DNA of 64,000 nt from NCBI GenBank assembly GCA_037349105.1, contig JAYJMM010000119.1, forward strand, positions 310,001 to 374,000, given 5' to 3'. Source of the stretch: Limnomonas spitsbergensis (taxonomy: Eukaryota > Chlorophyta > Chlorophyceae > Chlamydomonadales). The translations under genes were made by a program, and so were the position numbers. Positions 3,001 to 64,000 of this stretch are shown one piece after another (position 1 is the stretch's first letter; every line of letters begins with the position of its first letter). Under the pieces are notes generated by a model, which worked only from the letters and a program-made list of their open reading frames with translations, did no database searches and was not told where the DNA came from.

Positions 3001-3048
3001 CACCAAACCATCCCTATTGGCCTGATTCCCCCCCGCCGACACACACAC
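1..3048. repeat. 66-bp minisatellite filling a DHC1b intron, about 46 copies
   Basis: Units of about 66 bp start at the exon 51 donor and run to the window edge. On the minus strand each unit holds GCGGGTGCAG/GTGTGTG, copied from the exon end and donor, plus a second consensus donor GGTGAGTA. Two unit types alternate: the common one with CCCCACAC runs, and a rarer one with CCGCCGACACAC like the copy touching the exon (near 930, 1130, 1195, 2050, 2175, 2375, 2440, 3030). All six frames are open over long stretches because the unit is a multiple of 3; these are not genes. Confidence 0.95.
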
Positions 3049-3157
3049 CTGCACCCGCTCCACCCGGATGAACTCCAGGTGCTCATCGTAGTACCCTTCA
3101 TGCGTCAACAGCTGCTGCAGGAAGGCCACGAGCTGCGCAGTCTGGTACTTATCAGGG
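3049..3157 (-). CDS. DHC1b: DHC1b exon 51, last one in the window (residues 2399-2435)
   Basis: Reads [15 protein letters not shown] to RVERVQ. Its donor GTGTGTGTCGG is the first of dozens of near-identical copies in the 1-3048 array. The next exon lies left of position 1. Confidence 0.93.
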
Positions 3158-47060: not shown

Positions 47061-48028
47061 GTCTCTTCAAGGGCAGATTTTGAGCAGGGCCCAGAGGTGC
47101 AACGTCATTGACTTGCAAAAGCAGTCTTCATATGCACAGCCCACACTGCACCAGCAAACACACCGCATTCGGCCAACACAGCACCAGCGTAAGCTGGCCT
47201 CGTCGAAAGCCAGTCAAGCCATCGCATGCACACTCAGTGGTCAGTGTATCAGATTAAGAATGCTGAGTTCAGAGACTGGCCTGTAAAAACGTAACAAAAC
47301 GTCACAAAAACGTCACAGAGACCATATTCGTTGCCACGTCACAAGGCCTAGCACAAGTCAAAAGTTTGTTGGGCACACATGGTTCTCGGGGACTGAGCCA
47401 AAAATGACAGCTTTTACAGATGTATCCCATTATCCAATTGCCAATGACGTTATACCTCTGGGCTCTACTAAAAAAGGATCAGCCGCATGGGCGCCCAGCC
47501 ATCTGGTCGGGAGGGAATGGGAAGTCAAATAGGAAAATAAAGGAGAAAGAAGAATATAAAAAGCCCAACCCCAAAAGGAAAGGGAGTCCGGAGAATTCCG
47601 AGCCCCTTCAGAGTCAAGCGTGCAACAAGTGAAAAAAGAGGATACAAGGCTACTTTGAGTTTAGCTTCCCAGTGGGACATCACACTTGATGCACAGGGCA
47701 ATATCTGTAGAGGCTCAGTGCCAGCCTGAGATGTCTCCTTCTGTACTACCGTTTTATAATTTGTTGGCCAGCCGTTTTCCAGCCGATGTGTCTTATAGAT
47801 GCCCACCATCCCGCAGCCACGCCCACTGCCCCACTCCCAGCAGGCCTTAGCCGAATTCTCTCATTACACCCCTCGATTAGCCCACCTTAGGGGGTTAGCC
47901 GGGCCAAAAGAAATATAAATATGTCGTCTTGAATGGAATTCGGTCGGCGACTGAAGCAACTCAACTTGCGCTCTTGCAGCACCACGCCATATTTGAACAG
48001 GGACCCTAGGTTTATTTATCAACCCCTG
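47061..48028. other. Repeat-like intergenic DNA
   Basis: An A-rich block at 47515-47640 is T/C-rich on the minus strand, like the LINE 3' regions elsewhere in the window. No gene is supported. Confidence 0.4.
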
Positions 48029-48912
48029 TGTCGCACCATAAAGCAGTAATCGTGCCAAAATGGTGTAAGCTGTCCTTACTGCCTTAGAGAGGCTCAAACT
48101 ACTCACAACTAAGGTTCAACACCTGTACATACGTGCCTCTTGTACTACACTGCTGAGGTACAAGGGCTGTAAAGGGGTAACTTGGTACAGCGTACCGCAT
48201 AAGAGCTAAGGCTGGGATAAGGCTGGCCTGCCCGGGCGCCCCTAGCTGTGGGTACCGCCCCTACTTTACTCGCGATGGTTGCTTCGGGTCCGTGGTGGAC
48301 TTCTTCCCCACTGAGTGGCGGACACCTACGGGCGGACTCAGCGTCTACACGCTGGCCGTGAATGCGCAGCGCGTTAAGCTGTGGTTGGAACTTCTAGGTG
48401 ACAGGCGTGGAGCTGGTCGCTTGTAGAGCTGCGACTAAAGGCCTGTCGGGTAGCGAACCCTGCAGGTCGTTATGAGTCACTTACCGCGTGTAGCGGGCGG
48501 AGCCGTAGCCGTAGACTGCGGACGACGTAGTCCTAGGCAGGGCTGGGCTTCGGGCTAGGTGTTCTCGTGCTTGCTAGAAGGCGGGGTCGTTGTTCTAGGC
48601 TTGACTGGCTTAGTGGTACTGGCTTTGATGCACTTCACTGGTTAGGTCTCCGAGATCTAGCCGGTGCTGGTTACAAATAGAGGCCTGTCCACTTAAAAGG
48701 AACGAAGTGAACGTCAAGCGTGCAAGCCGGGATTCAAAGGTCCCGGCAAGCCCTATGCACTGAGTACGGGAAACCCTGCCTCAGACCTTCCCGAAAGTGG
48801 GAAGCTGGGCTCCTAACCCTAAAAGGGGGCTCCGCAGGGAAGCTGCGGAGTCTACGGGGACGCGTCAGCGGACCCTACGGTTTTGGCACGTATACTGCAT
48901 TATACCGTGACA
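48029..48912 (-). mobile_element. Solo or partial LTR (884 bp)
   Basis: Bounded by TGTC...GACA, with the inverted ends TGTCGCACC and CCGTGACA. Its first 245 bp (plus coordinates) are identical, apart from one base, to the start of the neighbouring LTR at 48915; the rest is unrelated. Only GC separates the two. No clear target duplication. Confidence 0.6.
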
Positions 48913-48914
48913 GC

Positions 48915-49965
48915 TGTCGCACCATAAAGCAGTAATCGTGTCAAAATGGTGTAAGCTGTCCTTACTGCCTTAGAGAGGCTCAAACTACTCACAACTAAGG
49001 TTCAACACCTGTACATACGTGCCTCTTGTACTACACTGCTGAGGTACAAGGGCTGTAAAGGGGTAACTTGGTACAGCGTACCGCATAAGAGCTAAGGCTG
49101 GGATAAGGCTGGCCTGCCCGGGCGCCCCTAGCTGTGGGTACCGCCCCTACTTTACTCGCCCCCCGCTCCTCACGGAACGCACACCGGGCGTGCGTGGGGA
49201 GCCGGACTAGGGGTGGTACTGAAATTGAGATCGGAAAAATATGTACACTCAGAACTGGTCAGTTCCCTAACACGGAACCCTCCTAAACACCTAAACAACC
49301 AGTCGGTTTGAACAAAAGAAATCCACTGAAGAAAATCCACTGCAGGAAATTAACACAAGGAAATTCACCAAAGAATACTCACTGAAACCCGTGGCGAACC
49401 CTAGGTCCAACCAAGGTACCGAAAACTCGACTCAGGCCTCTGGGTTCCCGGTCTCTTTCTGGCCTGATCAGGGCATACAGAATCCGGTACCTTCACCATT
49501 GTCATGCTTGTTTGGAAGTCAAGAAAGGGTCAGAACCCCTGAAAAACCATCAGAACTACGGGAAGCCAGCGGCCATCAGAATCCATCAGAAATTGTCAGA
49601 ACCCTTCAGGAATCAGAACGCATCGGAAACCATCAGAAACCAGAATTCCACAGAAACCATCAGAAATCAGAACGCATTGGAAACCATCAGAAACCAGAAT
49701 TCCACAGAAACCCTCAGAAATCAGAACGCATCGGAACCATCAGAAACCAGAATTCCACAGAAACCATCAGAAATCAGAACGCATTGGAAACCATCAGAAA
49801 CCAGAATTCCACAGAAACCATCAGGAATCTACAGCGGGTCGCATGAGAATGAACCGAATCTTCAGTGGGGCTCATCCGGGTCTACAGACTTCTCCTGTTA
49901 TTCAACCCTCAGCTCTTCGTAGGAACACGGAAACCCGCTGCTCTCGCCCCACTGCACCGTTGACA
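48915..49965 (-). repeat. 3' LTR of the methyltransferase-bearing retrotransposon (1051 bp)
   Basis: Bounded by TGTC...GACA (TGTCGCACC at 48915, CCGTTGACA ending at 49965). It lies just past the Pol stop in the element's sense. Its right part holds a 54-bp tandem repeat. I could not confirm a strong polypurine tract at its edge; a purine-rich AAGGGGGACAAAGAGGG lies about 100 bp before it. Confidence 0.65.
49560..49832. repeat. 54-bp tandem repeat in the 3' LTR
   Basis: Units combine CATCAGAAACCAGAATTCCA and CAGAAACCATCAGAAATCAG with AACGCATTGGAAAC; about four to five copies in the U3 side. Confidence 0.88.
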
Positions 49966-50093
49966 CCTGGCCCTAAGCTACAGGAGACGTGTGCAGTAGC
50001 AGCGGTGCTTCTCCCAACCCGCCGCTACAGGTGGCTGGCCCTGTGGCGGTTCTATGGCTATTATCCCTCTTTGTCCCCCTTGGCTGTCTGCCC

Positions 50094-53000
50094 CTAGGCA
50101 GCTGTCTCCTCCTCTGCTCTGGCTGCGTCGGTGGCCGCTTTGGCCCTGCGCTGAACTGCCCTGGGGGTGACGTTGGCTTCTCCTCTGCCCGTTGTGTATG
50201 AAATGTCATACAGCCCGTTGGGCATGGGCCTGGCGATGCCCCGCTCCATCTGTTTAGTGGCCGGATTGGTGGCCATGACCTCCACCTCTGGCTTGTCCAT
50301 GGCTCCTGTCTCCTGGGCTGCTCTGGCGGCTGCCCTGGTTGCCCGGGGCGCTGTCTCCTCGTGATGGGCTGGTTTGTTCGGTACTGCTGCTGCGGCCGGG
50401 CCCGTCACGCTGGTCCCTGATGCTGGCTCGCACCTGGGGCACATCCAATCGCCCTCGGGGATGGCGTAGAGCGCTGGCGCGAGGCAGTCCATGTGCCAGC
50501 CGGTGTTGCATGCGTCGCACAGGAGCATGACGTCCCCCCGGTCGGGTAGGCGGCAGACTTCGCAGGACAGGCTGACGTTGGGCCTGGAGGTGCTGAAATC
50601 CACCCTGCCTTTCAGGTTGGGGAGGTGGCACGGGGAGCAGTTGACTGCGTTCTCTGTTATGGTCAAGCCATCGGCGCCCTCTAGCACCAACGCCCCCGTC
50701 TCCCCCAGCCTCTGCACCCGCAGGATTTCCGGCCTGGCTTTGGGGTCGAGGCTGCGCCGCTCCGAAGCGTACCGGACGAACACGTAATCCCCAACGGCGA
50801 ACCGCCTGACCTGGGGTACATATCCTCCTCCGCGGATCCTGGCGTAGCGCAACTTGTCCCGGTGCTGTGCGATCTTCAGGTGCTCTCCCGCGACCGGAAG
50901 GGCCTCCTTGATCCTGGCCACCCTGGCGAGGAGCAGGTCTGCGGCCTCCTCCACTGTTGCCACTCGCGCTGTGCTCCATAGGTCTGCCCCGACCTTGGAG
51001 GGGAACACTGGCTTCTGCCCGTACAGTACCTCGTAGGGAGCCATGCGCGTAGCCTGCTGAGGCGAGCACCGGAAACCCAGCGCCACCCACGGGACCATCC
51101 TGTCCCACGAGTCATCGCTGCTCCCGTCCCCGCAGCACTTGCGCAGGCCCGTCTTGAGGGTCTGGACAGCCCGTTCGGATAGCCCATCCGCCTGGGGATG
51201 GTTGGCGGAGGTGGTGCGATGGTCAATGAAGCAATCGAGTAACATGTCTTGGAACTCTCCCTGGAACTCTGTCCCCTGATCGGTGACCACCTCTGCGCAT
51301 CCCCCAAACCGTGCAACCACGTTTTGGAAGAATGCCAAGGCCGTCACGTCAGACGCCTTGCTGGGGATGGGGATAAGCTCCACCCACTTGGAGTAGTGCT
51401 CTACACACACCATGACGTACCGGTTGCCCCTAGGCGTGGTAGTGAACGGCCCGCACAGGTCCACACCCCAGCGGAAAAATAAACCCTCAATAGGGAGTGG
51501 GTGCAGGTCTGGCTGCGTGTGATTGAACGTGGACGCCCTTGCCCTGTCGCACACCCCGCACTCCTGGACAGCCTTCCTGACTGCTGCTCTAAGCCCTCTC
51601 CACCAGTGCTGCTGCAGGATCATGAAGGCCGTGCGGTGGCTGCCGAAGTGACCGGTGCTAGCGTGAGCTTCCCTGATTACTGCCTGTCTGTCCTCGGGCC
51701 TGGGAACTACACACCGCCGCCCGTCTGGCATCACCCTTATCAGCACGCCCCCCCTCTCTGGTTCCCACTGGAAAGGTGCGGCTCTGCGCTGCACCCTGGC
51801 CTGTTCCCCTGCTTCTGCCCCAGGGGGGTGCATTTTTGATTGCAGGTAGTGCAGGACTGGCACGTCTGTCCATACGTCCACCCGGGCTGCAGGCCCTGCT
51901 GCGCATCCTGGCGGGTCCACGACCTCCCCTGCTTCGTCGTCAGCTACCCGGACGGGATCTGGGTCTGGGTGAGACTGCCCACCTGGTTCCTGGGCTGCAT
52001 CCGCCCAGTCTGTTGCCGCTGACTCCCCCAAGCATTGCCGATACGTTGCTGCCGCTTCGTCCTCGCCGGAGCATGCTTTGCCTGCACTGGCTAGGGCGCA
52101 ATGTGTGGACGTCAGGGTCATGCCGATAGCGGGGTCGCGGTCCGGGTCTGGTAAACCAGCCCTGCGGGCCAGCTCCCTAGGGATGATCTTGGCCGCCTCG
52201 AGGGCTATGGTGAGCCAAGCCTCGAGAGCCCAAGCATCCATGCACCTGCCCAAGGCGGCCCTCCTATCTCCTTCAGGGAAGTCGGGGCGGGGCAAAGTGG
52301 ACCCCACTGCGTACCCCATGGCCCTCTCCCTTTCATTTGCATTTGGTTCCTGCAGGCCCCCCATGGGCCTGAAAACCATGCCGATCTGCCCGTTCCGGAA
52401 AGCGTAGGATGCGGGGGTGGCCATGAGGCAGGGCAGCGCCCTCCTTGGTTGCCCAGACACATTGATACGGTACCCGCCGTTATCGGGGCAGGCCACGACC
52501 TGCGCCCTACTACCCTCGTCCAGGATGTCATCCACAATACCGTCGTGCGGCCTATGCGATGCCTGGATAACAAACTCAATGTCTGCAGCTGGTGCTAGGT
52601 TGCCCCAGTAGTTGCGCGTGCGGTGGGCATAGGAGCCCACTTGCGCTGCATCAAACAGGGAAGGCCTGCCCAGCATCCTGCACACCTCGCCGAAAGCCTC
52701 TACACTAGCCTTCTCGCTCCTCTGGTTTAGCTGCATAGCGACATTTTCAATCAGGTATGCTGGCGGCTTGGCCCTCTGCAGGAACTGCAAGGAGCCGAGC
52801 AGCTTGATAAGCGGGAAGAAAGACCTGCTCCTGGCCCCCTCGAGCCCCTTGCCCTTGCCTGCAGCCGACAAGTCATGGCACTCCCATCCTGCTACCATAA
52901 ACCACTGGCGACCTTGCTGTGCCCCAACCTCTATGAAGTGCTGGGCAGTAATGGAGTACACGTCCTGGGGCAAAGCCCTGAGCGCCCCCTCGACAGCAGG

Positions 53001-56000
53001 CGCTGGGAGCAATAGCGGGTATTGCTTGTGCAGCTGCACCAGTCTTCCCCCCGCGATCTCCCGCATGGTGGCACTGGTGTCGGCGTACAGATACTGTATG
53101 ACCGGGATGCCTGCTCTAAGCACCATCTCAAGCCCAGAGCACATACCTCCGAAGGGTTCGAACAGGACCACTCCCTCTTGCTCCAGGGCGTACACCGCCG
53201 CTGTGGGTAGGCATGCCGTATCCACCCCTGCATGGAGGTGGGCCGGAGTCGAGCGGGGCAGGTCGGTCAGCACATTGTTGATCAGGTCCCGGGCCCTGGC
53301 CCTACTATTGAAAGCTCTTTCTGCAGTACTGGCAGGCTGTGCCTGCTCATCGTCCTCATCCTTTGCGCTGGAGATAGCCTGGCCGCACGGGGCCACTGTA
53401 CATGCCGTCTCAGCGGCCTGCAGGCGGCGCACGCCTCGTCTGCCCTCTTGCGCCAGGCGAACCACCTGATCTGCGTGCCACTGATTTACCCTGCCTAGGC
53501 CTGTGAGCATAGCGACATGAGCTCCGCAGGTGACCCCACTAGGGTTGTGCGGCTCAGGGGCGACATCGTCTAGCCGCGCTCCTGTGCGGTCGTCAGATGA
53601 CGGGAGGGGTGACCTAGACGGGATATCTGCGTTCTGGTGGCAGGCCCCTGACCGGTGGACAATGGTGATGTCAAGCTCCTGGAGCATGAGTGCCCAGCGT
53701 GCGTGCTGCCCCACTAGGGCCTGGTTATCCATGAGATAGGTGAGGGGTTCGTGGTCTGTGACCAAATGCACCTTGCACCCAAAGAGCATATGACGGTACG
53801 TCCGGGCAGCGTACACAGCGGCGAGCATTTCCCCCTGAAACGACGAGTAGCTCTTTTCGCTTTTGTTCAGGGAACGGGAAGTGCAGGCTACCATGTACTC
53901 CCTGCCGCTGTCGTCACACTGCCCTAGCACCGCCCCTATACCCTGTTTAGAGAAGTCGGTGTACAACAGGAATGGCCTTGGTGGCCCCTTGCCATCTGGA
54001 CCCGTTCCGCTGTAGTCAGGTCTGCGTAACACCCTGCCTCCTTCGCACATCTCAGTTTTGATCAGCTGAAACGCTTGGGCCTGCTCGGGACCCCACACAA
54101 ACGGGACCCCCTTGACAAGCAATGCGTTGATGCATGCGGCTTTGCGAGAGAAATCCGGGATGTAGCACCGGTAGAAGTTAAGGAATCCCATGACCTCCTG
54201 AATGTTCTTGACCGATGCGGGTTCGGGCAGAGCCATGACGGCCGCTATTTTGGCTGCGTGCGGTGTGAGACCTTGGGCCGAGACGTTGTGGCCTAGGTAC
54301 TCCACCGTGGCACACCCAAACAGGGACTTGTCAGGATGCGCTCGCAGTCCTACCGCGTGGAGCATGTCTAGCATGAGCTCGACATGCCTGATGTGATCTG
54401 CAGGTGTGTCACTATACACCAGCAGGTCGTCAATGAAAGCCACACAGAAGGAGCTCAGGCCCGCCCTGGCGATCTCTTCCTCCATCATACGCTGGAAGAA
54501 GGGAGGCCCGTTGCGCAGTCCAAAGTTCAACTTTGTGTACATCCATAGTTCTGGGCCCATCCAGAAAGCCGTTTTGGGCTGGTCCTCGACCTTGATCGGG
54601 ATCTGCATGAATCCTGACCTCAGATCTACCTTGCTAAATACTTTAGCTGTGCCCAGGTTCTGAAAGATAGTTTCCATCCTGGGGATAGCAAACTCCTGCT
54701 TGGCCGTGCGGAGGTTCATTCTCCTCATGTCATGCGCAATGCGGTGGTCTGACCACTCGCCCGTCTCGGCACACTTCTTGGCCGCTACGACCGAGTTGGC
54801 CGCAAACTTGATGGGCCCTCCCTGGGGGACCCTGACAATAATGCCTGCCGCTATCATGGGCTGGCATTTCTCTTTGAAAATGGCTGCTTTAGGGGGTGGC
54901 ATGTCCCTTGCTTTCTGAAAGCACGAGTTGTGCTCGTCCTCTAGGGCCAGCGTAAACTCACCCTGTGCACCGCAGTAGCCTGGCAGTTCAAGCATGGAGT
55001 AGGCGAACGCCCCCTGACGGTCCCGTAGGCTCTGCTCCAGCTGCTCCTGCTGCTCCCCAGTAAAGTCGGGGTGCTTCCCGAGCAGCCACCCCTCCTCAGT
55101 TTTGACGTACTCTGAGGGCGCATGCACCACCCCTCCGGGCTGGAACATGTCGATGACTCCCCCTGCCAGCGGTTCCCCTGTCACTGCCTGTGGCCCTGCG
55201 TTGGATGTGCCCTGATCCCAGGTGCTTTGCGGACGGGGGGGCCGAGGGGCGGGCATATCCACTGGGGGTCGCAGCCAACCAGGCTCCAGCTTGGCAGCTG
55301 CCTCCCTGCTGCAGACGAATGCTCCTTGTCCGGCAGTGAATCCCCCTCCTCGCACGCCCCTTCCGCTGGCCTGTGCCCCAGGGAGGCAGGAGAGCAGGAG
55401 CCACACCAATGCCAGGTGGCACAGGCAAGCCAGAAGGCCCCTGAACGCTGTGCAGGGAAGGAGACCCTTGCAGGCCGGCTGCTGTCTGGGGCTGGGCTGT
55501 GGTCCTGCAGGGGCTGCCGGTGACGGCGCTGCTGGCGGGCCCTGGTCCTCTGGTCCCTCCCGCCAGGAGATTTCCAGCTCCACCTGGCTGATCCTGGTGG
55601 GCGGCGATGGGCACCCTGTGCTGTTACTGGCGTCTCTTGCCGCTGCTTTCCTGCGTCGTTGGCGCGCGCGGGTCCTGGCGTTCCTTGCCCTTCGCGCTGC
55701 TGCGGCCCTGACCTTGGAGGAGTCCGCTGGTCTGTTTTCGCCCCTGCTGGTGGGGGTCTGATGTCCCTCTGCCGCTGTTGGACCTGTGCAGCCTGCAGCG
55801 GATCTGTAAGCGCCTTCCGGGCTGACAGTCTGGGCTCTGGCGCTGCTGCTGCTCCTGGCTGCGCTGCGCGGCTGTCTGCCCAGCTTGTGGGGCTGGAGCA
55901 TCGTCCGCTGGATGGCCTGGTAGTTCCATAGGCTGGTTCTCTCCGGAACCCCCCACTCCACCGGCCAGTCGTCCAATGGCTCGCCTGCCTCTGGCCACCG

Positions 56001-59000
56001 CCCCTCGTCATTGGCCTTGATGAGCTCTGCCCCGATGGACAGGATCTGGGCGTACTGGACCGCGTGCATGGACGGCTGTAGGGGCTGGTCTGCTGTCTCC
56101 CTGTACCATTCCCTGAATGGCACTGGGCGCTGCTCCCCCCTTCTAGCCTGGTTGGCCTCGTCCTGCCTTCGCTCCTCGATGGCCTGCCGTACGTCGGAGA
56201 TGGTTGCCCTGCTGTGCGCTGCCTTGAACACCACCTCCCTTTCGCCGGGCAAGGCTTCCTGCGCGCTGCACCACCATCGCACCCCGAGCCTGGAGTCCTC
56301 CTCCATCTGCCTTTGCCTGATGAAACCCAGCGACTGGTTCCTCTCGGGGCATGCCATGGCTAAGTGCCCCTGGTGGAAGCAGATGGCGCATCTGCCCTCT
56401 CGCAGGCGTGGTGCGGGGCAGGCGTGGTAGTCGTGCCCCTTTTTTCCGCAGCGTTCGCACGGCTCGCTGTGGACGGAGTGGTGGCCCCACGCCGGGGGAA
56501 CTGCATCGCTGCAGCCGCAGGAGGCCCACACCCCTCGCCGGGTACCTCCTATGCCTGGCTTGTCCATGCAGGTGCCGCATGCCTTGGCGTGGCACCGACA
56601 GCAACGCCGGCTGGGCTGTTCTGTTGGGCCAATGCTTTCTCCGCATCCCAAGCAGCTTGGCAGCCTGGCCTCGGGGGTCATGCAGAACTGGCACACTCTG
56701 GCTGCCCCTGTCCGCGGTGTTCTCATGCACAGGTCATGCCATGCTAGTCCGCATGCGCTGCACCAGATCACGCGTTCGCCTGCACGGGCCTGGTCGCACC
56801 CTGCGCACGGCTCCTTGCGCTCTTGGCCGGAGCCAGAGGATTGGCCTGAGGTCCCGGCGCCGTCTGTGCCTGGGTCCCCCTCCCGTTCTGGCGGCTGTGC
56901 CTCGCTGAGGGACCCTAATCGGCCGCGGAATGCCTGCCGCAGCTCCTCCGCTGCCTGGTTGCGTCCCTGCAGCCTGGGGTCGGGGCTGGGGTCTGGGACC
57001 ATGCTCAGCCTGTAACGCAGGCTGGCCTCGATGCGGCCGCCCCTGGGCTCTGGGCCTTCCTGGAGGACTGGCCATGGTGCCCCGCCCTCGAGCCGCTGCC
57101 TGTCCCGTTGAGCCACAAACTGTCGTAACTCGTCATCCCACTGCTCCTTGCTGAGATCTGCACTCCTGTGATCGGGCTCCCCCTCGGCTGCCAAGCGCGG
57201 CGCGCCAGGGTCCTCAGGATCAGGATTGCTGGCCTCGCTGTTGGTGTCGCTGAGCCCCCTGCTCCAGCTGGGTGAGGTGTCAGCCTGGAATCCCAGGGTT
57301 GCCGCAGGTTCTGGCCGCCCTTCTGTGGCTCTGCTCTGCTGGCTGTCCCCTTGCATATGCCCGGCTGAAGGTGCAGTATGCTCGCCGGGCACTGCCACCC
57401 TCCCCTCTGGTGGCGCAGTGTGCCCTGCTGTTGCTGCTGGTTCCTCCTCGGAATCCGAGTCCTGTAGGAGCTGCGGCAGTCCTGCCAAGCTGTTCTCCTC
57501 GTCTGACTCGGGCCAATCCACCTCGTAGTTGCCCCCCCTCAGGGAGGTGAAGAAAGAATGCTCCCTGCTGCTTGGCTGCATGTTGAGGGTAGTTTCGTCG
57601 GGGCTGTGAGTGCTGCCTGGGCTGGTTGTCTCCCTGAATGCTCCCCAACGCCCCCGCGGCGTCTCTTGGCGGTCCGCTATGCCCCTATCCAGCAGGCCTG
57701 TCAGGTCCCTCAGGGCCTCATCGTGATTGCTACCGCTGAATAGGGGGTGGAGCGTGACGGCTCCCCTGGGGTGCCTTTGCCACCAAAGGCGGACAGTGGC
57801 CGCCGGTGCCGACCAGTGGGGCAGCAAGATGGATGGGACGCCGTTGTAGTAGGCCGCCTGTTCCACCCGCATCCACTGCTGTAGGCAGCTCTGCAGCCTG
57901 CCTTGAGCAAAGGCTGAGAGGGTGAGGGCCTGCTCGCCCTGCCACGCGGTGGCGCCCGCTGCTGGCGTGCAGTGCGCTGACACGTGCGTAGGGCAGTCGG
58001 CTCTTTCTTGGGGTGCCCAAAGCTCGTCCACTATCTCGATGTTGTGGACAGCTGCTGACATCTGTTCTGGCAGCAATGTCCTGTTAAGGGCCATCATCAT
58101 GATGGTCCACACCGCCGGGTCTGTTCCTCGAAAGGTGGACACCGCGTGCTCCTCTGCCTGTTCTACGGAGGGAAACCGGTCACTCTGCACCTGGGTAGCT
58201 GTCTTGAAGAAGAACCACACGGGCTGGTCATCGCGTGTGGCGTGCATGTGTATCCACGCCCGCGGTGCGGGGTGCGGCCACTGCCCCTCCAGGTCCTCGT
58301 GGTAGTATGCCACCGCCATCCGAACCGGGATAGCGACCCTGGCGTCACTTGGCTCGTACCCCCAGGGGACCGCCTGGCCCATGACCTCTCTGGCGATGTC
58401 TTGCCCCCTCTCGACGATCTCGGGGCATTGGCGAGGCGTTCCTGGGTGGAGGATCCCGGCACCGTCGTACCCGCTGTGGTCCCGCAGTGCCGCCAGGGCG
58501 TACGCCTGCCTGGCTGCTGCTTGTGTGGGTACGCAGACGGCTTGGTTGGCCAGGCACGGGTGGCGAGCGAGAGTCATGACGCAGTTCTCTGCCCACGGTG
58601 TCCGCATGAATCCGTCGTGGGCGTGCTGCCACATGCCGTATGCCCTTGCCGCGTCTGGTATCTCCGAGCTGGTCCTGAACTGCTCCTCTGCTGCGGTAAT
58701 CCCCTCCTTGACGACGCTGCCCAGGAGTTCGCTGACGCAGTTGGCATAGAGAGGAGTTGGCCACGTGGAGCTCATGAACTCTTCCATGGCCGTGCTAGGT
58801 CTGATGTGACCTTTAATGGCCGCAGCCAGGAGCCCTGCTGTGACCGCGTCCATGGGAAAGACCAACCTTGCTACTGCCTGCATTGCTGCCTGTCTGTCAA
58901 CGCAGATGACTTCCCCCCGCGGTACGCACCAATGGTTTTGCAACCTGCACAGGCCGTCCGCGCCCGCGCCGGGAAGGGTGATCATGGCCGCTGTGGCGGC

Positions 59001-59852
59001 TACCTCTGGCATGTCTGTTCCTGCCGGGTACCACTGCACGAAGCAATGCCTAGGCCAGGGCTCGCCAGGCCCTGGGCCCGGTGCGTCGAGGTCCTCTGCG
59101 CCTGCTACTGCGCTGAGGTCGCTGTCTCCCCAGTGGTCTGGGTTCTGCGGCTCCTCTGGTTCCCACCACTGCTCTCTTTCGCTGGGTACTTCCTCTTGCA
59201 TCCATGTCCTTTCTGTTGGTCCGTGCTCTGTCCTGCAGCTGCGGTGCCCGCTGCCTGCGGCTAGGGGCCGGCTGGTGACGCCCCCTGTGGCCCCATGGGC
59301 CTGCAGCGTGGAGCTGCTACCGCCTCCTTCCGCGGAAGCTGCCGGCCTTGGGCCTGCGGCGGGGGCCCCTGCTTCCGGGGTACCTGGGCACAACACGTCG
59401 GGGGGGTCGTAAATGTCCTGGGAAAGGTCGTCTGACTCCCCCTCCTGCCCTGAGGCCTCCCCTGATATCTCAGGGTCCTGTCTGTGGGCGCTGCCCTCTG
59501 ACTCGCTGTTGCCCTGGTCTTCCCTGGCCCTGAGCGTGACTAGGAAATTTGCGAGCAAGGCGAGCCACCCCTCTTGAGGGGCTGGTGCTCCCATGCGTCG
59601 CAGGTAGTCCAGGAGTTCTAGGGCATGGGCTGTGCTCTTAGGGGCGTCTGCGGGCATGGTCAAGAGGCCATTGGTGGCAATTGCTTCCACGGCCACCCGC
59701 CAATGATGGATTTGCTGGGGCACCTCTCCGTTCCGTGCCTCCGTGGCTATCCCCTCTGGGTCCAACCCTGGCTCAGGCTCACGTCCTTCATGAAGGCCCA
59801 ATGGCTGCCTTGCCTGCTCTTCCTGCCCGTCTAGGTACGCGTCATCCCACTC
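50094..59852 (-). CDS. Pol polyprotein: zinc fingers, RT, RNase H, DNA methyltransferase, integrase, PHD finger
   Basis: Open for 3252 codons after the Gag UAG (59853-59855), in the same frame. Residues here count from the TTG at 59801; no ATG occurs before residue 49, so readthrough of UAG is the simplest start. Order: unknown acidic then Trp-rich region 1-990; PHD-like finger 999-1040; RING-like Cys cluster about 1050-1098; CCHC knuckles 1115-1128 and 1138-1151; hydrophobic segment about 1454-1476; reverse transcriptase with FIDD at 1789-1792; RNase H (D1949 of TDFSK, then FQGEM, TDHEP, NADIPSR); cytosine-5 methyltransferase about 2205-2530; integrase with HHCC and D2781, D2841, E2876; PHD finger 3080-3124; basic/Ala-rich tail to 3235. 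Copies RNA to DNA and inserts it; the methyltransferase is the unusual addition. Confidence 0.9.
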   Translation of the reverse strand, partial: EWDDAYLDGQEEQARQPLGLHEGREPEPGLDPEGIATEARNGEVPQQIHHWRVAVEAIATNGLLTMPADAPKSTAHALELLDYLRRMGAPAPQEGWLALLANFLVTLRAREDQGNSESEGSAHRQDPEISGEASGQEGESDDLSQDIYDPPDVLCPGTPEAGAPAAGPRPAASAEGGGSSSTLQAHGATGGVTSRPLAAGSGHRSCRTEHGPTERTWMQEEVPSEREQWWEPEEPQNPDHWGDSDLSAVAGAEDLDAPGPGPGEPWPRHCFVQWYPAGTDMPEVAATAAMITLPGAGADGLCRLQNHWCVPRGEVICVDRQAAMQAVARLVFPMDAVTAGLLAAAIKGHIRPSTAMEEFMSSTWPTPLYANCVSELLGSVVKEGITAAEEQFRTSSEIPDAARAYGMWQHAHDGFMRTPWAENCVMTLARHPCLANQAVCVPTQAAARQAYALAALRDHSGYDGAGILHPGTPRQCPEIVERGQDIAREVMGQAVPWGYEPSDARVAIPVRMAVAYYHEDLEGQWPHPAPRAWIHMHATRDDQPVWFFFKTATQVQSDRFPSVEQAEEHAVSTFRGTDPAVWTIMMMALNRTLLPEQMSAAVHNIEIVDELWAPQERADCPTHVSAHCTPAAGATAWQGEQALTLSAFAQGRLQSCLQQWMRVEQAAYYNGVPSILLPHWSAPAATVRLWWQRHPRGAVTLHPLFSGSNHDEALRDLTGLLDRGIADRQETPRGRWGAFRETTSPGSTHSPDETTLNMQPSSREHSFFTSLRGGNYEVDWPESDEENSLAGLPQLLQDSDSEEEPAATAGHTAPPEGRVAVPGEHTAPSAGHMQGDSQQSRATEGRPEPAATLGFQADTSPSWSRGLSDTNSEASNPDPEDPGAPRLAAEGEPDHRSADLSKEQWDDELRQFVAQRDRQRLEGGAPWPVLQEGPEPRGGRIEASLRYRLSMVPDPSPDPRLQGRNQAAEELRQAFRGRLGSLSEAQPPEREGDPGTDGAGTSGQSSGSGQERKEPCAGCDQARAGERVIWCSACGLAWHDLCMRTPRTGAARVCQFCMTPEARLPSCLGCGESIGPTEQPSRRCCRCHAKACGTCMDKPGIGGTRRGVWASCGCSDAVPPAWGHHSVHSEPCERCGKKGHDYHACPAPRLREGRCAICFHQGHLAMACPERNQSLGFIRQRQMEEDSRLGVRWWCSAQEALPGEREVVFKAAHSRATISDVRQAIEERRQDEANQARRGEQRPVPFREWYRETADQPLQPSMHAVQYAQILSIGAELIKANDEGRWPEAGEPLDDWPVEWGVPERTSLWNYQAIQRTMLQPHKLGRQPRSAARSSSSARAQTVSPEGAYRSAAGCTGPTAAEGHQTPTSRGENRPADSSKVRAAAARRARNARTRARQRRRKAAARDASNSTGCPSPPTRISQVELEISWREGPEDQGPPAAPSPAAPAGPQPSPRQQPACKGLLPCTAFRGLLACLCHLALVWLLLSCLPGAQASGRGVRGGGFTAGQGAFVCSREAAAKLEPGWLRPPVDMPAPRPPRPQSTWDQGTSNAGPQAVTGEPLAGGVIDMFQPGGVVHAPSEYVKTEEGWLLGKHPDFTGEQQEQLEQSLRDRQGAFAYSMLELPGYCGAQGEFTLALEDEHNSCFQKARDMPPPKAAIFKEKCQPMIAAGIIVRVPQGGPIKFAANSVVAAKKCAETGEWSDHRIAHDMRRMNLRTAKQEFAIPRMETIFQNLGTAKVFSKVDLRSGFMQIPIKVEDQPKTAFWMGPELWMYTKLNFGLRNGPPFFQRMMEEEIARAGLSSFCVAFIDDLLVYSDTPADHIRHVELMLDMLHAVGLRAHPDKSLFGCATVEYLGHNVSAQGLTPHAAKIAAVMALPEPASVKNIQEVMGFLNFYRCYIPDFSRKAACINALLVKGVPFVWGPEQAQAFQLIKTEMCEGGRVLRRPDYSGTGPDGKGPPRPFLLYTDFSKQGIGAVLGQCDDSGREYMVACTSRSLNKSEKSYSSFQGEMLAAVYAARTYRHMLFGCKVHLVTDHEPLTYLMDNQALVGQHARWALMLQELDITIVHRSGACHQNADIPSRSPLPSSDDRTGARLDDVAPEPHNPSGVTCGAHVAMLTGLGRVNQWHADQVVRLAQEGRRGVRRLQAAETACTVAPCGQAISSAKDEDDEQAQPASTAERAFNSRARARDLINNVLTDLPRSTPAHLHAGVDTACLPTAAVYALEQEGVVLFEPFGGMCSGLEMVLRAGIPVIQYLYADTSATMREIAGGRLVQLHKQYPLLLPAPAVEGALRALPQDVYSITAQHFIEVGAQQGRQWFMVAGWECHDLSAAGKGKGLEGARSRSFFPLIKLLGSLQFLQRAKPPAYLIENVAMQLNQRSEKASVEAFGEVCRMLGRPSLFDAAQVGSYAHRTRNYWGNLAPAADIEFVIQASHRPHDGIVDDILDEGSRAQVVACPDNGGYRINVSGQPRRALPCLMATPASYAFRNGQIGMVFRPMGGLQEPNANERERAMGYAVGSTLPRPDFPEGDRRAALGRCMDAWALEAWLTIALEAAKIIPRELARRAGLPDPDRDPAIGMTLTSTHCALASAGKACSGEDEAAATYRQCLGESAATDWADAAQEPGGQSHPDPDPVRVADDEAGEVVDPPGCAAGPAARVDVWTDVPVLHYLQSKMHPPGAEAGEQARVQRRAAPFQWEPERGGVLIRVMPDGRRCVVPRPEDRQAVIREAHASTGHFGSHRTAFMILQQHWWRGLRAAVRKAVQECGVCDRARASTFNHTQPDLHPLPIEGLFFRWGVDLCGPFTTTPRGNRYVMVCVEHYSKWVELIPIPSKASDVTALAFFQNVVARFGGCAEVVTDQGTEFQGEFQDMLLDCFIDHRTTSANHPQADGLSERAVQTLKTGLRKCCGDGSSDDSWDRMVPWVALGFRCSPQQATRMAPYEVLYGQKPVFPSKVGADLWSTARVATVEEAADLLLARVARIKEALPVAGEHLKIAQHRDKLRYARIRGGGYVPQVRRFAVGDYVFVRYASERRSLDPKARPEILRVQRLGETGALVLEGADGLTITENAVNCSPCHLPNLKGRVDFSTSRPNVSLSCEVCRLPDRGDVMLLCDACNTGWHMDCLAPALYAIPEGDWMCPRCEPASGTSVTGPAAAAVPNKPAHHEETAPRATRAAARAAQETGAMDKPEVEVMATNPATKQMERGIARPMPNGLYDISYTTGRGEANVTPRAVQRRAKAATDAARAEEETAA
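50430..50566 (-). other. C-terminal PHD finger of Pol
   Basis: C4HC3 pattern with CDACNTGWHMDCLAP and PEGDWMCPRC (residues 3080-3124), the canonical PHD spacing. PHD fingers commonly read the histone H3 tail. It occupies the place where chromoviruses carry a chromodomain. Confidence 0.9.
50870..51690 (-). other. Integrase domain of Pol
   Basis: Zinc-binding HHCC (HASTGHFGSH with later CGVC), then WGVDLCGPF (D2781), VTDQGTEF (D2841) and LSERAVQ (E2876). By my count 34 residues separate the second D and E, one fewer than the usual 35. Confidence 0.93.
52205..53190 (-). other. DNMT3-like cytosine-5 DNA methyltransferase domain inside Pol
   Basis: Motif I FEPFGGMCSGLEMVL (SAM binding, from residue 2214); motif IV GWECHDLSAAGKG with catalytic Cys2308, where the usual Pro before Cys is Glu; motif VI ENV (E2352); motif VIII HRTRNYWGN (2393-2401); then a target-recognition stretch of about 90 residues and a motif IX/X region ERAMGYAVGS to GRCMDAWALEAWL. 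The CxDLS and KGLEGARSRSFF spacing resembles DNMT3 (CNDLS, KGLYEGTGRLFF) more than DNMT1 or bacterial Dcm. Predicted to methylate cytosine in DNA. Confidence 0.88.
53595..54900 (-). other. Reverse transcriptase and RNase H domains of Pol
   Basis: RT blocks visible: KVDLRSGFMQIPI, FGLRNGPPFFQRMM, FCVAFIDDLLVYSD, KSLFGCATVEYLGH, FLNFYRCYIPDF. RNase H follows with TDFSKQGIGAVLGQ, SFQGEMLA, LVTDHEPLTYL and HQNADIPSRSP, the Ty3/gypsy pattern with all four acidic sites. Confidence 0.95.
56400..56810 (-). other. Zinc-finger cluster in the Pol N-terminal part
   Basis: A PHD-like C4HC3 finger (CAGC, CSACGLAWHDLC, CQFC; residues 999-1040), a Cys-rich RING-like block (CLGC, CCRCHAKACGTC, CGC), then two CCHC knuckles, CERCGKKGHDYHAC and CAICFHQGHLAMAC. 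Confidence 0.8.
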
Positions 59853-62800
59853 CTATTCAAACCAGGTGTCTGGTTCGTTGAACCCTGGGTCGTGCCCCCT
59901 GGGGATGGTGGCGAAGCACCCCTGGGCACCTTTGCCCGCCCACCTGGGTCCCTCCGGTGGTCCTGGCAGGAAGTTGGCGGGCGGGGCGCCTGCCTGCCTG
60001 GCTGCCCATACCTCGAATGGCTCGTCCTTGGCTGCCTCGAACAGGTCGCGGAGGCGTTCGTGCTGCTGGCTGCCGCTGGGGGGCTCCTCCTGCCTGAAGC
60101 GACTGTGTCCCGGGTTGTCCTGGGCTGGTGCTCGGCCTTCGCCCCCGCCGCTGGGCCTCCAAGGCTGGGCCTGCGTCTGGTTGCATTCGAATGCGAGGTG
60201 GCCGCTACCTCCGCACTTGTAGCATGCTTCCTTAGGGAGTGCTCTGCCGGTCCTGCCCCGGGCAGAGTCTTCCAGCGGCGCCCACCTGATTATCCTGCTC
60301 TCCCCTGGCTCCTCGGCTGTCGAACGCCTTCCGGGGCTGTGGGCCTGGCTTTGCCTAATGGGGCTTCTGGCTCTTCCCTGCGGCCAACGCTCGCCGCGGG
60401 GGCTGCGTGGCGCCTCCCCTTCCCGGCGCCTGCCGCTCCCGCCCTCGGGTTCTCTGCTGCCGTGGTTGGGTGGGTTCCCTGGGGTAACGGGACTGCGGCT
60501 GCGAGTTCTTCTGTTCCTGCCCCCGCCGTCTGGGCTGAGGGCCTCCCTGCCCCTGGGCCGCTGGTTGCCACCGCTGGTGCCCTGCGGGGGTGGAGGTGGC
60601 CTTCTGTTTGGTGACCTCGCCCGAGGCTGCTGTGCGCCGCTCCTTCTCTCTGTCGGTTCCCCCGGCCAGCGCCCGTCCTGGTGCTGTTCGGTGCTTGGAG
60701 CCCGCCGCTCCCTGCTGTGGCTACTGCGCCGTGGGCTCCTTTCCCTTGGCTGACGCTCTGCGGCGCTGGCGCTCCTGGGCGCCCTGCCGCCGTCGGGGTT
60801 GCGGCTTGGGCCGCTGCCTGACCCCCTTGCCCGTGGAGAGGGGGTGCGGCTGGCCCTTGCTTTGGGGTGATTGCCCTGCTTGGGCTGGGCTCTATTGTCC
60901 CGTAGAGACTGCAACATGTCCTCCGGGTAGTCCCCTAGGCCAGGGTCGTCGAGCTCACTCAGGACCTTCTGCACCTCAGTGGGCTTACCCCTGGGCGTTC
61001 CTTCTTGGCCGTCCTGTCCTCCTCCCCTGGCTTCCTTGCTTGGTGCCGCGCCCTGCTGCTGGGGCTCGACAGTTGTGTCTGCCGCAGGCTGCTGCTGCCT
61101 GGCCTCCCTGGCCCCGCTGCAGGCCTCCTGCTGGGCTCCACAGGGGCGCTGGGGCCCCGGCTCAGGGGCTGCCTCTGTGCCCTTGTACTCCTCCTTGTAC
61201 CTCCTTTTGAGATCATTCACCTCTATGATCCACTTGGCGCATTCGCCCTTCCACCGTGCCATCTCCCTGTCTGAAGCGCCGTCCGCCATTGCCCGGGCCT
61301 GCTCCATTTTGAAGGAATAGATGTCTGCCTCCCTGCTGGCGATTCTCTGCCTGGCTGCGACCCGGATGGCCCTGTTCAGGGCCTGGACCTGGGCCTCCAG
61401 GCTGCTGACGACGTCTGCCCTGGGAGCGTTTCTGTCTGCCTGCAGCTCAGACTCTGAATCAGTGGTTCCTTCATCGCTGTGGCTGGTGTCCTGAGTGTGC
61501 GCAGCCGGAGAGCCTGGCTGGCAGCTGCCTCTGCTGTACGTGTCTACTCCCCGGCCCGGCTCGTTCTCCAGGAGCTCCCCTAGCCGCCGCTCGCATTCCT
61601 GGTCCGTATGCGATCTGCGCATGTCGCAATACGCGCAGGGGCCGTCCCTGTTGCGCAGGGCATTCCTGACCTCCTGTCGGACGGTGTGCTCCTGCTCCAT
61701 GGCCAGCCTCGCCTTGTCCCGCGCTGCTACGGGAGGGTCCACGGCTTTGCCGTCCTTGTCCCGCGCTGCTACTGAGGGGCCCCCGGCTTTGCCGCCCTTG
61801 TCTCCGCTGACGGGCCGGCTCCCGGTACCCCTGGTACCGTCCGGATCCGCCGGCGCTGCGTGAGCCTGGGTACGGGCTACTGGGTCTGCCTCTGGCGCTG
61901 CAGCAGGGTTGGTTCCCTTTTGCCCTGCTTGCTGGCGCGCTGCCTCAGTACCTGCGCCACGGGCCCCTTTGGCCTTGGCCGGCTTGGCCCCTTCTGGTGC
62001 TGCCGCAGGTGCCTCTGCCGCGGGCAGACGGGTGACACGGTTTGCGGCGACTGTAGTTTGCGTCGCAGGGCCGCCTCCTGTACCTGTCACCATGGCACAT
62101 TGTGGGGTTAAGTCTGGGTTCATCTCGCCCCAATCTGCCGGCCACTCCTCAGGCACCCAGGCGGGGTCGTCCAAGCCTGCCCAGGTTGCCGCGGCCGCCT
62201 GGTGGGATCCTGCTGGTGATATCAGTTCTAGCGGCAGGGTGAGCCCGTCGGCTCCCCCTTGAGGGAACAGGGTGAGGCGCCCTGCGGCTTCTAGGACTCC
62301 CCCATACTTGAGGAATTCGGGGTTCCCTACCAGGTGCTCATACGCGTCAGGAGGCGTCTTGACCACCCTGACCGCTGCTTTCTCCACGATCGCATTCGGG
62401 CTTCCATACCCGTACACGACGTAGATGAACAGAATCCCGTACAGGTCTGCTCCTGCATTATCGGTTGTCCTGATCTTTTCATCCGTCCTCACCAGCTTGG
62501 CCCCCATGGCTACCAGCTGTTCTGCTATGTTGACGGTGATGACATGGCATGAACATGCCGTGTCCATTAGTGCCTTCTGGGCCACCAGCACCTTCCCTTT
62601 CACCATGAGGCCTACGCACTGGCTGTAATCTCGCCTGTCGTTTGTGAAGTATTGTAGCCTCGGGCTGATGGTGATCTTACGACCCTGACCTATCCAGCCC
62701 GGCTCACCACGGACCGGCGTGACTCCCATGGGCATGGTGGTGTGCGCCAGCGCTGTAAGTCGTTCGTTGATGTAGCCCACCTGCGCACGGACATCGCACA

Positions 62801-64000
62801 GTCCGTCAGCTAGTCGCCTAAGAGCAAGCCTTTTCTCTCCCTTCCTGGAAGGGTGTTCAACAGCCAACGGCTCCTCCTCCTCCTCACTGCTAGAGGAGGG
62901 TCTAAAGGACCGTGGCCTGGCGTTGTGGGCTGCCTGCTTGTACTCTCCAGGCTTGGGTGCCAGCCCAACCTGCGTCAGGAGGGCTACGGATTCGCTGAGC
63001 ATTTCGGCCACCGTTTGGTGCCACCCATCCGGCTCAGCGAGCTCGGAGGGGCCAGAAAGGTGAGACAGATGAGCGGACTGCTGGCCATGCCCCGCCTGCC
63101 CCTGCGGCTGCCTCTGGGCCGGCCTGCCTCCTTGGGCCCTGTCGTAGGTCCTGTTCACAGGTGGCCCCTGCGGTCTTGGGGGCGGTGGGTACTGCTGTTG
63201 AGGCGGCCGTGCCTGCCCCGTGGTGATGTCAGTGGCCAGGGAGGCAGGGCGGCGTTCGTCTCTAGCCCTGGGAGTCCTGCAGTCCCTTGCCAGGTGGTCC
63301 AGGCTGCCGCATTGGAAGCAGGCTTTGGGGGCGCCCCCTGCGCTGTGGGTGCTGGTTGTCAAGGCTGTGGCTTGGTCGGCCCACGTGACGCCCTTGGCTC
63401 TGCTTTCCTGCCTGGCAGGCTGGCTGCTGTTCTGGTATGGCGCAACCCCTGGTCCATCCCCTCTGGGCCTGGCTTCCCACTGGCTGGGCCGATCTCGCCT
63501 GCCGCGCCCCGCCTGTTGCTCCCCCTGGCTCCTCTGCTGATGGTCTCCTGGCCCTTGCCTGGAGTCCATGGCAGCCAGGTCCCCTAATTCCAGGGCGAAC
63601 CTCTCCCACAGCAGTACCTGCTGCGTCAGGACCTCTACCTGGGCCTCGTCTGTCATGTGCAGGTATCCTGGCACTGTCATGATGAACGCTGTCAGCTTCA
63701 CTCTGACTGCCCCTGGCAGCCCTTCGTAGAACATGTGGGCTACCGAATGCCTCCTGCCGAAGTGGTCCACTGCGTCTCTGGATATCTGCAACAGCTCTGC
63801 TGTAGACATGACTCGGAAGGCGAATGCCTCCACTGTCTCCTCTGGCTTGACGCCTGGGTCCAAGGTGGTCTTGACCCCGAGCTTCAGGCCGGTGATTGCT
63901 GCCCTCTCATCTGAAGTCGGCTTGCCCACCTCCCTTTGGACCACCCTGATCCACAGGGTTAGCAAGGATACCTCACAGGTCGGCTCCTCCACTGGGGTTC
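59853..64000 (-). CDS. Gag-protease polyprotein, 5' end beyond window
   Basis: The frame is open from 64000 to UAG at 59853-59855. Residues counted from 63992: capsid-like N-terminal part (VKPEETVEAFAFRVMSTAEL, MFYEGLPGAVRVKLTAFI), CCHC knuckle CFQCGSLDHLARDC near 222-236, an aspartic-protease segment KALMDTACSCHVIT with D477 (DTA where retroviral types often have DTG), a CCHC-like CAYCDMRRSHTDQEC, a charged helical stretch, a long Arg/Ser/Pro-rich region with RS dipeptides, and a last knuckle CYKCGGSGHLAFEC near 1254. It packages RNA and matures the polyprotein. The true start lies beyond the window. Confidence 0.85.
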   Translation of the reverse strand, partial: TPVEEPTCEVSLLTLWIRVVQREVGKPTSDERAAITGLKLGVKTTLDPGVKPEETVEAFAFRVMSTAELLQISRDAVDHFGRRHSVAHMFYEGLPGAVRVKLTAFIMTVPGYLHMTDEAQVEVLTQQVLLWERFALELGDLAAMDSRQGPGDHQQRSQGEQQAGRGRRDRPSQWEARPRGDGPGVAPYQNSSQPARQESRAKGVTWADQATALTTSTHSAGGAPKACFQCGSLDHLARDCRTPRARDERRPASLATDITTGQARPPQQQYPPPPRPQGPPVNRTYDRAQGGRPAQRQPQGQAGHGQQSAHLSHLSGPSELAEPDGWHQTVAEMLSESVALLTQVGLAPKPGEYKQAAHNARPRSFRPSSSSEEEEEPLAVEHPSRKGEKRLALRRLADGLCDVRAQVGYINERLTALAHTTMPMGVTPVRGEPGWIGQGRKITISPRLQYFTNDRRDYSQCVGLMVKGKVLVAQKALMDTACSCHVITVNIAEQLVAMGAKLVRTDEKIRTTDNAGADLYGILFIYVVYGYGSPNAIVEKAAVRVVKTPPDAYEHLVGNPEFLKYGGVLEAAGRLTLFPQGGADGLTLPLELISPAGSHQAAAATWAGLDDPAWVPEEWPADWGEMNPDLTPQCAMVTGTGGGPATQTTVAANRVTRLPAAEAPAAAPEGAKPAKAKGARGAGTEAARQQAGQKGTNPAAAPEADPVARTQAHAAPADPDGTRGTGSRPVSGDKGGKAGGPSVAARDKDGKAVDPPVAARDKARLAMEQEHTVRQEVRNALRNRDGPCAYCDMRRSHTDQECERRLGELLENEPGRGVDTYSRGSCQPGSPAAHTQDTSHSDEGTTDSESELQADRNAPRADVVSSLEAQVQALNRAIRVAARQRIASREADIYSFKMEQARAMADGASDREMARWKGECAKWIIEVNDLKRRYKEEYKGTEAAPEPGPQRPCGAQQEACSGAREARQQQPAADTTVEPQQQGAAPSKEARGGGQDGQEGTPRGKPTEVQKVLSELDDPGLGDYPEDMLQSLRDNRAQPKQGNHPKARASRTPSPRARGSGSGPSRNPDGGRAPRSASAAERQPRERSPRRSSHSRERRAPSTEQHQDGRWPGEPTERRSGAQQPRARSPNRRPPPPPQGTSGGNQRPRGREALSPDGGGRNRRTRSRSPVTPGNPPNHGSREPEGGSGRRREGEAPRSPRGERWPQGRARSPIRQSQAHSPGRRSTAEEPGESRIIRWAPLEDSARGRTGRALPKEACYKCGGSGHLAFECNQTQAQPWRPSGGGEGRAPAQDNPGHSRFRQEEPPSGSQQHERLRDLFEAAKDEPFEVWAARQAGAPPANFLPGPPEGPRWAGKGAQGCFATIPRGHDPGFNEPDTWFE

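Follow-up and report, generated by a model that had tools for sequence, protein, structure and literature searches.

A DNMT3-like methyltransferase domain in the Pol of a Ty3/gypsy-type retrotransposon of the green alga Limnomonas spitsbergensis and its chlorophyte relatives

Hosts rely on cytosine methylation as a main weapon against transposons, which makes it puzzling that a transposon should itself carry a cytosine methyltransferase. Elements of this kind have already been published: de Mendoza et al. (2018, PMC5890265) describe KnitGypsy-Dnmt3, SymbioDIRS-Dnmt3 and SymbioLINE-Dnmt, and the elements of that founding paper come from dinoflagellates and one charophyte. Here we describe a further member from another algal lineage, a copy of a Ty3/gypsy-type retrotransposon with an unbroken Pol in the chlorophyte Limnomonas spitsbergensis. 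It fills most of the minus strand, from 63998 down to about 48029, of a stretch of 64,000 nucleotides (contig JAYJMM010000119.1, positions 310,001 to 374,000; the window in what follows). A sequence-only reading of the window had pointed to reports of methyltransferases captured by retroelements in a few algal and protist lineages, and this precedent is real (PMC5890265).

KnitGypsy-Dnmt3 is a long terminal repeat (LTR) Gypsy element of the charophyte Klebsormidium nitens with a DNMT3-related methyltransferase in its Pol open reading frame (ORF) (PMC5890265). Compared by its published description, it resembles the window element in having DNMT3 within the Pol of a Gypsy element, with key residues conserved, and the purifying selection reported for its DNMT domain is a further likeness (PMC5890265). 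Its repeats are DIRS-like, that is A-coding-B-A-B (PMC5890265), and a B-A-B end was seen in the window, a likeness that we treat as a lead only. The hosts of the two elements belong to different green-algal phyla. SymbioDIRS-Dnmt3 of dinoflagellates also has a DNMT3-like domain in its Pol ORF, and two of its copies were active in yeast, but it is a DIRS element with a tyrosine recombinase whereas the window element has a DDE integrase (PMC5890265). SymbioLINE-Dnmt, again from dinoflagellates, is likewise a retrotransposon with a C5-methyltransferase; it differs in being a long interspersed nuclear element (LINE) that encodes an enzyme of an orphan methyltransferase lineage in ORF1 (PMC5890265).

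The Pol frame of the window element is open from 50094 to 59852 on the minus strand, on which all features of the element lie, and spans 3,252 codons stop to stop, or 3,235 amino acids if counted from TTG (50094..59801). It encodes a reverse transcriptase (RT) with the motif FIDD (54282..54734; Pfam RVT_1, residues 1690-1840), RNase H (53676..54095; Pfam RNase H models, residues 1903-2042), a DNMT3-like C5-cytosine methyltransferase domain identified by profile, fold and motifs (52167..53189; residues 2205-2545), an integrase made of an H2C2 zinc-binding domain and an rve core (51195..51698; Pfam Integrase_H2C2, residues 2702-2756, and rve, residues 2778-2869) and, C-terminal to the integrase, a PHD finger (50430..50564; Pfam PHD, residues 3080-3124). 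The integrase shows TDQGTEF and, further downstream, a Glu (LSERAVQ). The succession of RT, RNase H and DDE integrase is that of Ty3/gypsy elements, and within the part of the element that the window holds, Pol has this H2C2/rve integrase and not the tyrosine recombinase of SymbioDIRS. In some lentiviruses this slot of Pol, between RNase H and integrase, holds a dUTPase, likewise an additional enzyme but unrelated to the methyltransferase.

Within the domain we found, in this order, what we take to be motifs I (EPFGGMCSG, from Pol residue 2215), IV (GWECHDLS, from residue 2305, with the catalytic Cys2308; 52866..52889), VI (LIENV, with Glu2352 and Asn2353; 52740..52754), VIII (AHRTRNYWGN, from residue 2392, with its RxR; 52599..52628) and X (GRCMDAW, from residue 2518), which together with a class I fold characterise C5-cytosine methyltransferases. 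Profile comparison matched the domain to DNMT3A with an E-value of 8e-22 (80.7 bits), followed by DRM-type enzymes (50.3 and 40.3 bits), HhaI (37.4), DNMT2 (28.4) and DNMT1 (16.0). The AlphaFold model of the domain has a predicted local distance difference test (pLDDT) score of 94. By profile and fold, and among the matches listed, the closest solved structures are the catalytic domains of DNMT3A and DNMT3B, which share the unpermuted motif order and AHR.R..WGNL around motif VIII; the window domain differs from them in its 24-25% identity (structural alignment), in Glu for Pro in motif IV and in being embedded in Pol. Across solved structures, the domain ranks nearer to DNMT3 than to DNMT1, DNMT2, DRM or bacterial enzymes, with the fold ranking, taken from the best 50 matches, holding no DRM or DNMT1 rows and thus no evidence about either. 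In a viral structure library, DNA cytosine methyltransferases of phages and giant viruses reached TM-scores of at most 0.62 (best 50 of 601), weaker than DNMT3. The curated models NCBIfam dcm and Pfam DNA_methylase match 21 and 19 of 24 members, respectively, and specify a C5 methylase only. DRM, a plant relative of DNMT3, was rejected on motif order, which in the window is I, IV, VI, VIII, X and not rearranged; DRM enzymes have a permuted order (PMC5890265).

These results bear out the sequence-only reading as to the architecture of Pol and the identity of the enzyme: ORF and Pfam analysis agree with one unbroken frame carrying RT, RNase H, methyltransferase and integrase, while profile, class I fold and motifs agree with a DNMT3-like enzyme inside a Ty3/gypsy Pol. 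All five motifs lie where it had placed them, in normal order, and the predicted structure matches the class I methyltransferase fold, a check that it had proposed. The target might be RNA (the element transcript or a tRNA) in place of DNA; RNA has been raised for LINE-type elements (PMC5890265). DNMT2 uses the same fold on tRNA. Both profile and fold nevertheless point to DNMT3, DNMT2 scoring far lower (28.4 against 80.7 bits), and we consider an RNA target very improbable.

A domain search limited to proteins of 1,779-5,661 amino acids yielded 68 homologous Pol-type proteins with 32-49% identity. Together with the window, 69 of 69 sequences conserve the catalytic Cys and the Glu-Asn pair, and 61 of the 69 have a PHD match. 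The sequence-only reading had named loss of Cys2308 or of the Glu-Asn pair as a test of its proposal, and in this set of long ORFs neither was lost. It had also taken GWEC as a reason to doubt activity. That doubt did not hold up: the residue preceding the Cys is Glu in 44, Pro in 18, Ser in 5 and Ala in 2 of the 69 sequences, and Glu in 86 of 163 of a wider set, so that Glu, the most frequent residue of the family at this site, is no sign of inactivity.

The wider set comes from an RT-based search, in which 120 of 166 matches were listed; these feed a set of 170 proteins that includes 18 from a domain-profile search. A methyltransferase match was present in 163 of the 170, and Cys, Glu and Asn are all kept in 145 of these. 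The other 18 are five short fragments (212-450 amino acids), nine proteins of a volvocine-type clade and four from Haematococcus. Seven proteins had no methyltransferase match: three are other gypsy Pols (P0088, P0089 and P0101), two have no integrase match and end shortly after RNase H (P0141 and P0145), and the remaining two, P0133 and P0144, are discussed below. The order RNase H, methyltransferase, integrase was found in 126 of the 128 proteins complete for RT, methyltransferase and integrase (124 by full span and two once stray sub-threshold matches were set aside). In the other two the methyltransferase lies ahead of RT, and a contig, L001, is a third such case.

A chance fusion or an assembly error is hardly credible in view of these numbers. 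Its one point of support is the Pfam DNA_methylase score, which in the whole protein (residues 2301-2365, 18.0 bits) falls below the curated cut-off of 22 and on the isolated domain reaches 22.1 bits; against it stand the unbroken Pol frame and an order common to 126 of 128 relatives on many contigs and in named genomes. Conserved motifs, shared order and the constraint on the domain described below already contradict it, and the E-value of 8e-22 to DNMT3A, the pLDDT of 94 and the shared order exclude a chance origin.

Hosts are named by the sources for a minority of matches: Monoraphidium neglectum and Chlamydomonas eustigma in the domain search, Chlamydomonas reinhardtii, Tetrabaena socialis, Pleodorina starrii and Haematococcus lacustris among the RT-search matches listed, and Pyramimonas for one fragment from the domain-profile search. 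The four named hosts checked for taxonomy (4/4) are all Chlorophyta. The design published from dinoflagellates and one charophyte appears here as a family across chlorophytes, with several Chlorophyceae and the Pyramimonas fragment. One record, P0044, has a name that looks like that of a transcriptome, which suggests transcription. In viral contigs, none of 75 pattern matches to the methyltransferase alignment and not the single one to RT was a relative; in genome contigs, L001 was the one relative among 103 pattern matches. P0021, annotated as a protein of a Minisyncoccia bacterium metagenome-assembled genome, groups with Monoraphidium (support 100) and is probably algal contamination.

Trees were computed for 58 of the 128 complete proteins (the window, every named host, every degenerate row, two rows of the pre-RT layout and others retained after thinning at 56% RT identity) together with L001 and P0091, and a quick RT plus integrase tree was rooted by two gypsy-type Pols from outside the family. 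Relative to these outgroups, the 62 family rows formed one clade (support 100), in a tree with no copia or DIRS rows. The three pre-RT rows (support 96) were sister to the other 59 (support 100), and the window fell in an eight-row group with C. eustigma (Shimodaira-Hasegawa-like approximate likelihood ratio test 94 in the rooted and 97 in the unrooted RT plus integrase tree). Judging from these sequences, the methyltransferase was probably either in the family before its diversification, with one change of place, or captured twice; support in the methyltransferase tree is too low to separate one move from two captures. P0133 and P0144 are the rows among the 62 with no methyltransferase match. 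In P0133, RNase H and integrase are separated by a short stretch only; the corresponding stretch of P0144 resembles, by eye, a decayed motif I region; both look like further losses outside the volvocine-type clade.

As a proxy for constraint we compared protein-level branch lengths of the methyltransferase and of RT plus integrase in 59 rows (LG+G4). On one fixed RT plus integrase topology from the quick search, with non-independent branches and a degenerate group defined by motif loss, the ratio was 1.12 outside the volvocine-type clade, where the domain is nearly as slow as RT plus integrase, and 3.5 within it. This clade, which includes C. reinhardtii, is catalytically dead: prediction still gives the fold, but the catalytic motifs are gone. 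Its ratio points to relaxed selection. The second Arg of motif VIII is absent from all nine of its proteins counted above. In three of the nine (P0090, P0092 and P0093) the position just before the catalytic one is a Cys and a Glu occurs close to motif VI, so that their alignment may be shifted there. P0091, from Tetrabaena, aligns in its second half only and was left out of the methyltransferase tree and of the branch-length comparison. The decaying Haematococcus domain P0126, counted outside the dead clade, has a tip ratio of 6.2.

The family contains its own natural control, with intact-enzyme lineages, in which constraint on the domain nearly equals that on RT plus integrase, on one side and a dead branch with dropped constraint on the other. 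Mammalian DNMT3L acts without catalysis. On that model the domain might mainly bind or scaffold, through S-adenosylmethionine or DNA binding or Pol assembly, with catalysis secondary; we think this quite unlikely, as the evolutionary rate of the dead-clade domain is 3.5 times that of RT plus integrase and catalytic residues are kept in 69 of 69 domain-search sequences. Possible, but less likely than not, is a scenario that gives such a role to the dead branch: a chlorophyte-wide gypsy lineage would have carried a DNMT3-like enzyme since before its diversification, under selection comparable to that on RT plus integrase, and the C. reinhardtii branch would have lost the catalytic centre, probably once, keeping the folded domain as a pseudo-methyltransferase of DNMT3L type whose task in Pol is not catalytic. 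If true, the domain would have two separable functions, and why retrotransposons carry methyltransferases would become testable in a model alga. As the dead branch occurs in C. reinhardtii, a genetic model, the use of the enzyme to the element can be approached by experiment.

For the window element we favour, with a probability of roughly 0.6, an active methyltransferase delivered with Pol, probably acting on CG, that masks the new copy from a CG-methylating host. As a part of Pol, lying between RNase H and integrase, the methyltransferase would be translated along with RT and enter the particle together with it. After second-strand synthesis, cytosines of the element DNA, probably in CG, would be methylated before or just after integration, and the new copy would then resemble the methylated bulk genome and not unmethylated foreign DNA. 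The PHD finger after integrase would probably help to select the chromatin of the insertion site. Such methylation, probably of CG, is suggested by the affinity to DNMT3 and by the yeast activity of two dinoflagellate relatives (PMC5890265), and self-methylation of new copies is a published hypothesis for such elements (PMC5890265). CpG observed/expected is 0.59 in gag, 0.63 in pol and 0.55 in the methyltransferase stretch; in the flanks it is 0.45-0.53, a depletion that fits a CG-methylating host, as expected.

Several observations weigh against this camouflage. The element is not lower in CpG than its flanks, so that self-methylation has left no visible trace, and we rejected CpG depletion as its footprint. 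The KnitGypsy DNMT, the sole Gypsy one tested by de Mendoza et al., gave no methylation in yeast, a result that these authors called inconclusive (PMC5890265). The domain is dead in the C. reinhardtii type, decaying in Haematococcus (P0126-P0129) and was not detected in P0133 and P0144; the enzyme is therefore dispensable in some lineages. Raised ratios are also seen at Haematococcus tips whose motifs are intact (P0146, 1.97; P0102, 2.56; P0110, 2.88). Mean identity over non-degenerate pairs is 0.420 for the methyltransferase, 0.473 for RT and 0.445 for integrase, and methyltransferase identity equals or exceeds that of RT in 1,206 of 7,140 such pairs. The size limit of the domain search, moreover, favoured intact frames and copies.

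The same anatomy and the same conserved catalytic residues would also serve a truce with the host, in which the methyltransferase silences the element's own new copies, with less damage and a longer life for the element. This alternative was named by de Mendoza et al. (PMC5890265) and is not separated from camouflage by the data here; self-restraint would have to be selected via host survival, and we regard it as unlikely.

The chlorophyte-wide spread, the second domain position and the dead volvocine-type branch including C. reinhardtii are possibly new. The literature covered (titles, abstracts and some passages, with subscription papers, Repbase and supplements outside its scope) reported no DNMT-bearing chlorophyte gypsy elements, and neither did the passages considered of PMC9998398, PMC9861306, PMC12730594, PMC12477816 and PMC12344493, the last of which notes reports of retrotransposon DNMT3s from streptophytes and dinoflagellates and also speaks of a ChloroDNMT lineage. 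The text of PMC5890265 is without the words Chlamydomonas, Volvox and chlorophyte, and its introduction states that DNMTs were linked to reverse transcriptase in two earlier studies. A BLAST comparison (E 1e-4) of Gag and the first 1,540 Pol residues of the window element with the set of 170 proteins gave no match, so we make no claim on their history. One of the two earlier studies is reportedly Iyer et al. 2011, which may include green algae.

Upstream of Pol lies a gag/protease-like ORF of 1,381 amino acids (59853..63998) that runs past the window edge, with zinc knuckles and, by eye, an aspartyl-protease-like LMDTACS at 62550-62570. Its frame closes with TAG (59853-59855), followed by GAGTGG, and Pol continues in the same frame. 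In the window, either Pol is produced via stop readthrough or the TAG is a nonsense change in this copy; relatives with a single frame of 4,231-4,737 amino acids exist (P0014, P0155 and P0162). L001 (1-9285), filed under an uncultured cyanobacterium metagenome-assembled genome, contains gag-like, methyltransferase, RT, integrase and PHD parts of the same family and is probably a mis-binned algal sequence. Its ends overlap by 127 nt, so the assembly closed on itself, owing either to collapsed LTRs or to circular DNA. Like the window, it has two long frames in register that a single TAG separates, here followed by CAATCA, which agrees with the leaky stop context known from tobacco mosaic virus, and Pol may be made by stop readthrough. 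The L001 methyltransferase lies upstream of the TAG, before RT, and would thus be made with the gag-side product, in larger amount.

Downstream of Pol, the element ends, in its own orientation, in B-A-B. The 245-nt repeat B1 (48915..49159) has one mismatch to B2 (48029..48273), the presumed outer end of the element, and between them lies the 641-nt segment A, a putative LTR body with inferred boundaries (48274..48914). With TGTC...GACA as its termini, the LTR can be read as extending from 48912 to 48029. The 5' end, including any A copy, lies beyond position 64000, and a search of the rest of the window for another copy, of either Pol residues 1561-3130 or the stretch 48001-64000, found none.

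Outside the element, a 472-amino-acid open frame on the plus strand (44780-46198), within a GC-rich patch, had no Pfam match at E 0.1. Long tandem arrays occur at 8308-9637, 13092-13999, 33036-33586 and 43778-44481 (periods 18, 29, 84 and 5). At the window edge, positions 1-3059 form a strongly C-rich minisatellite of about 46 copies of a 66-bp unit. A tRNA-Gly (GCC) at 22270-22340 on the minus strand is the sole Rfam match above the gathering score in the window.

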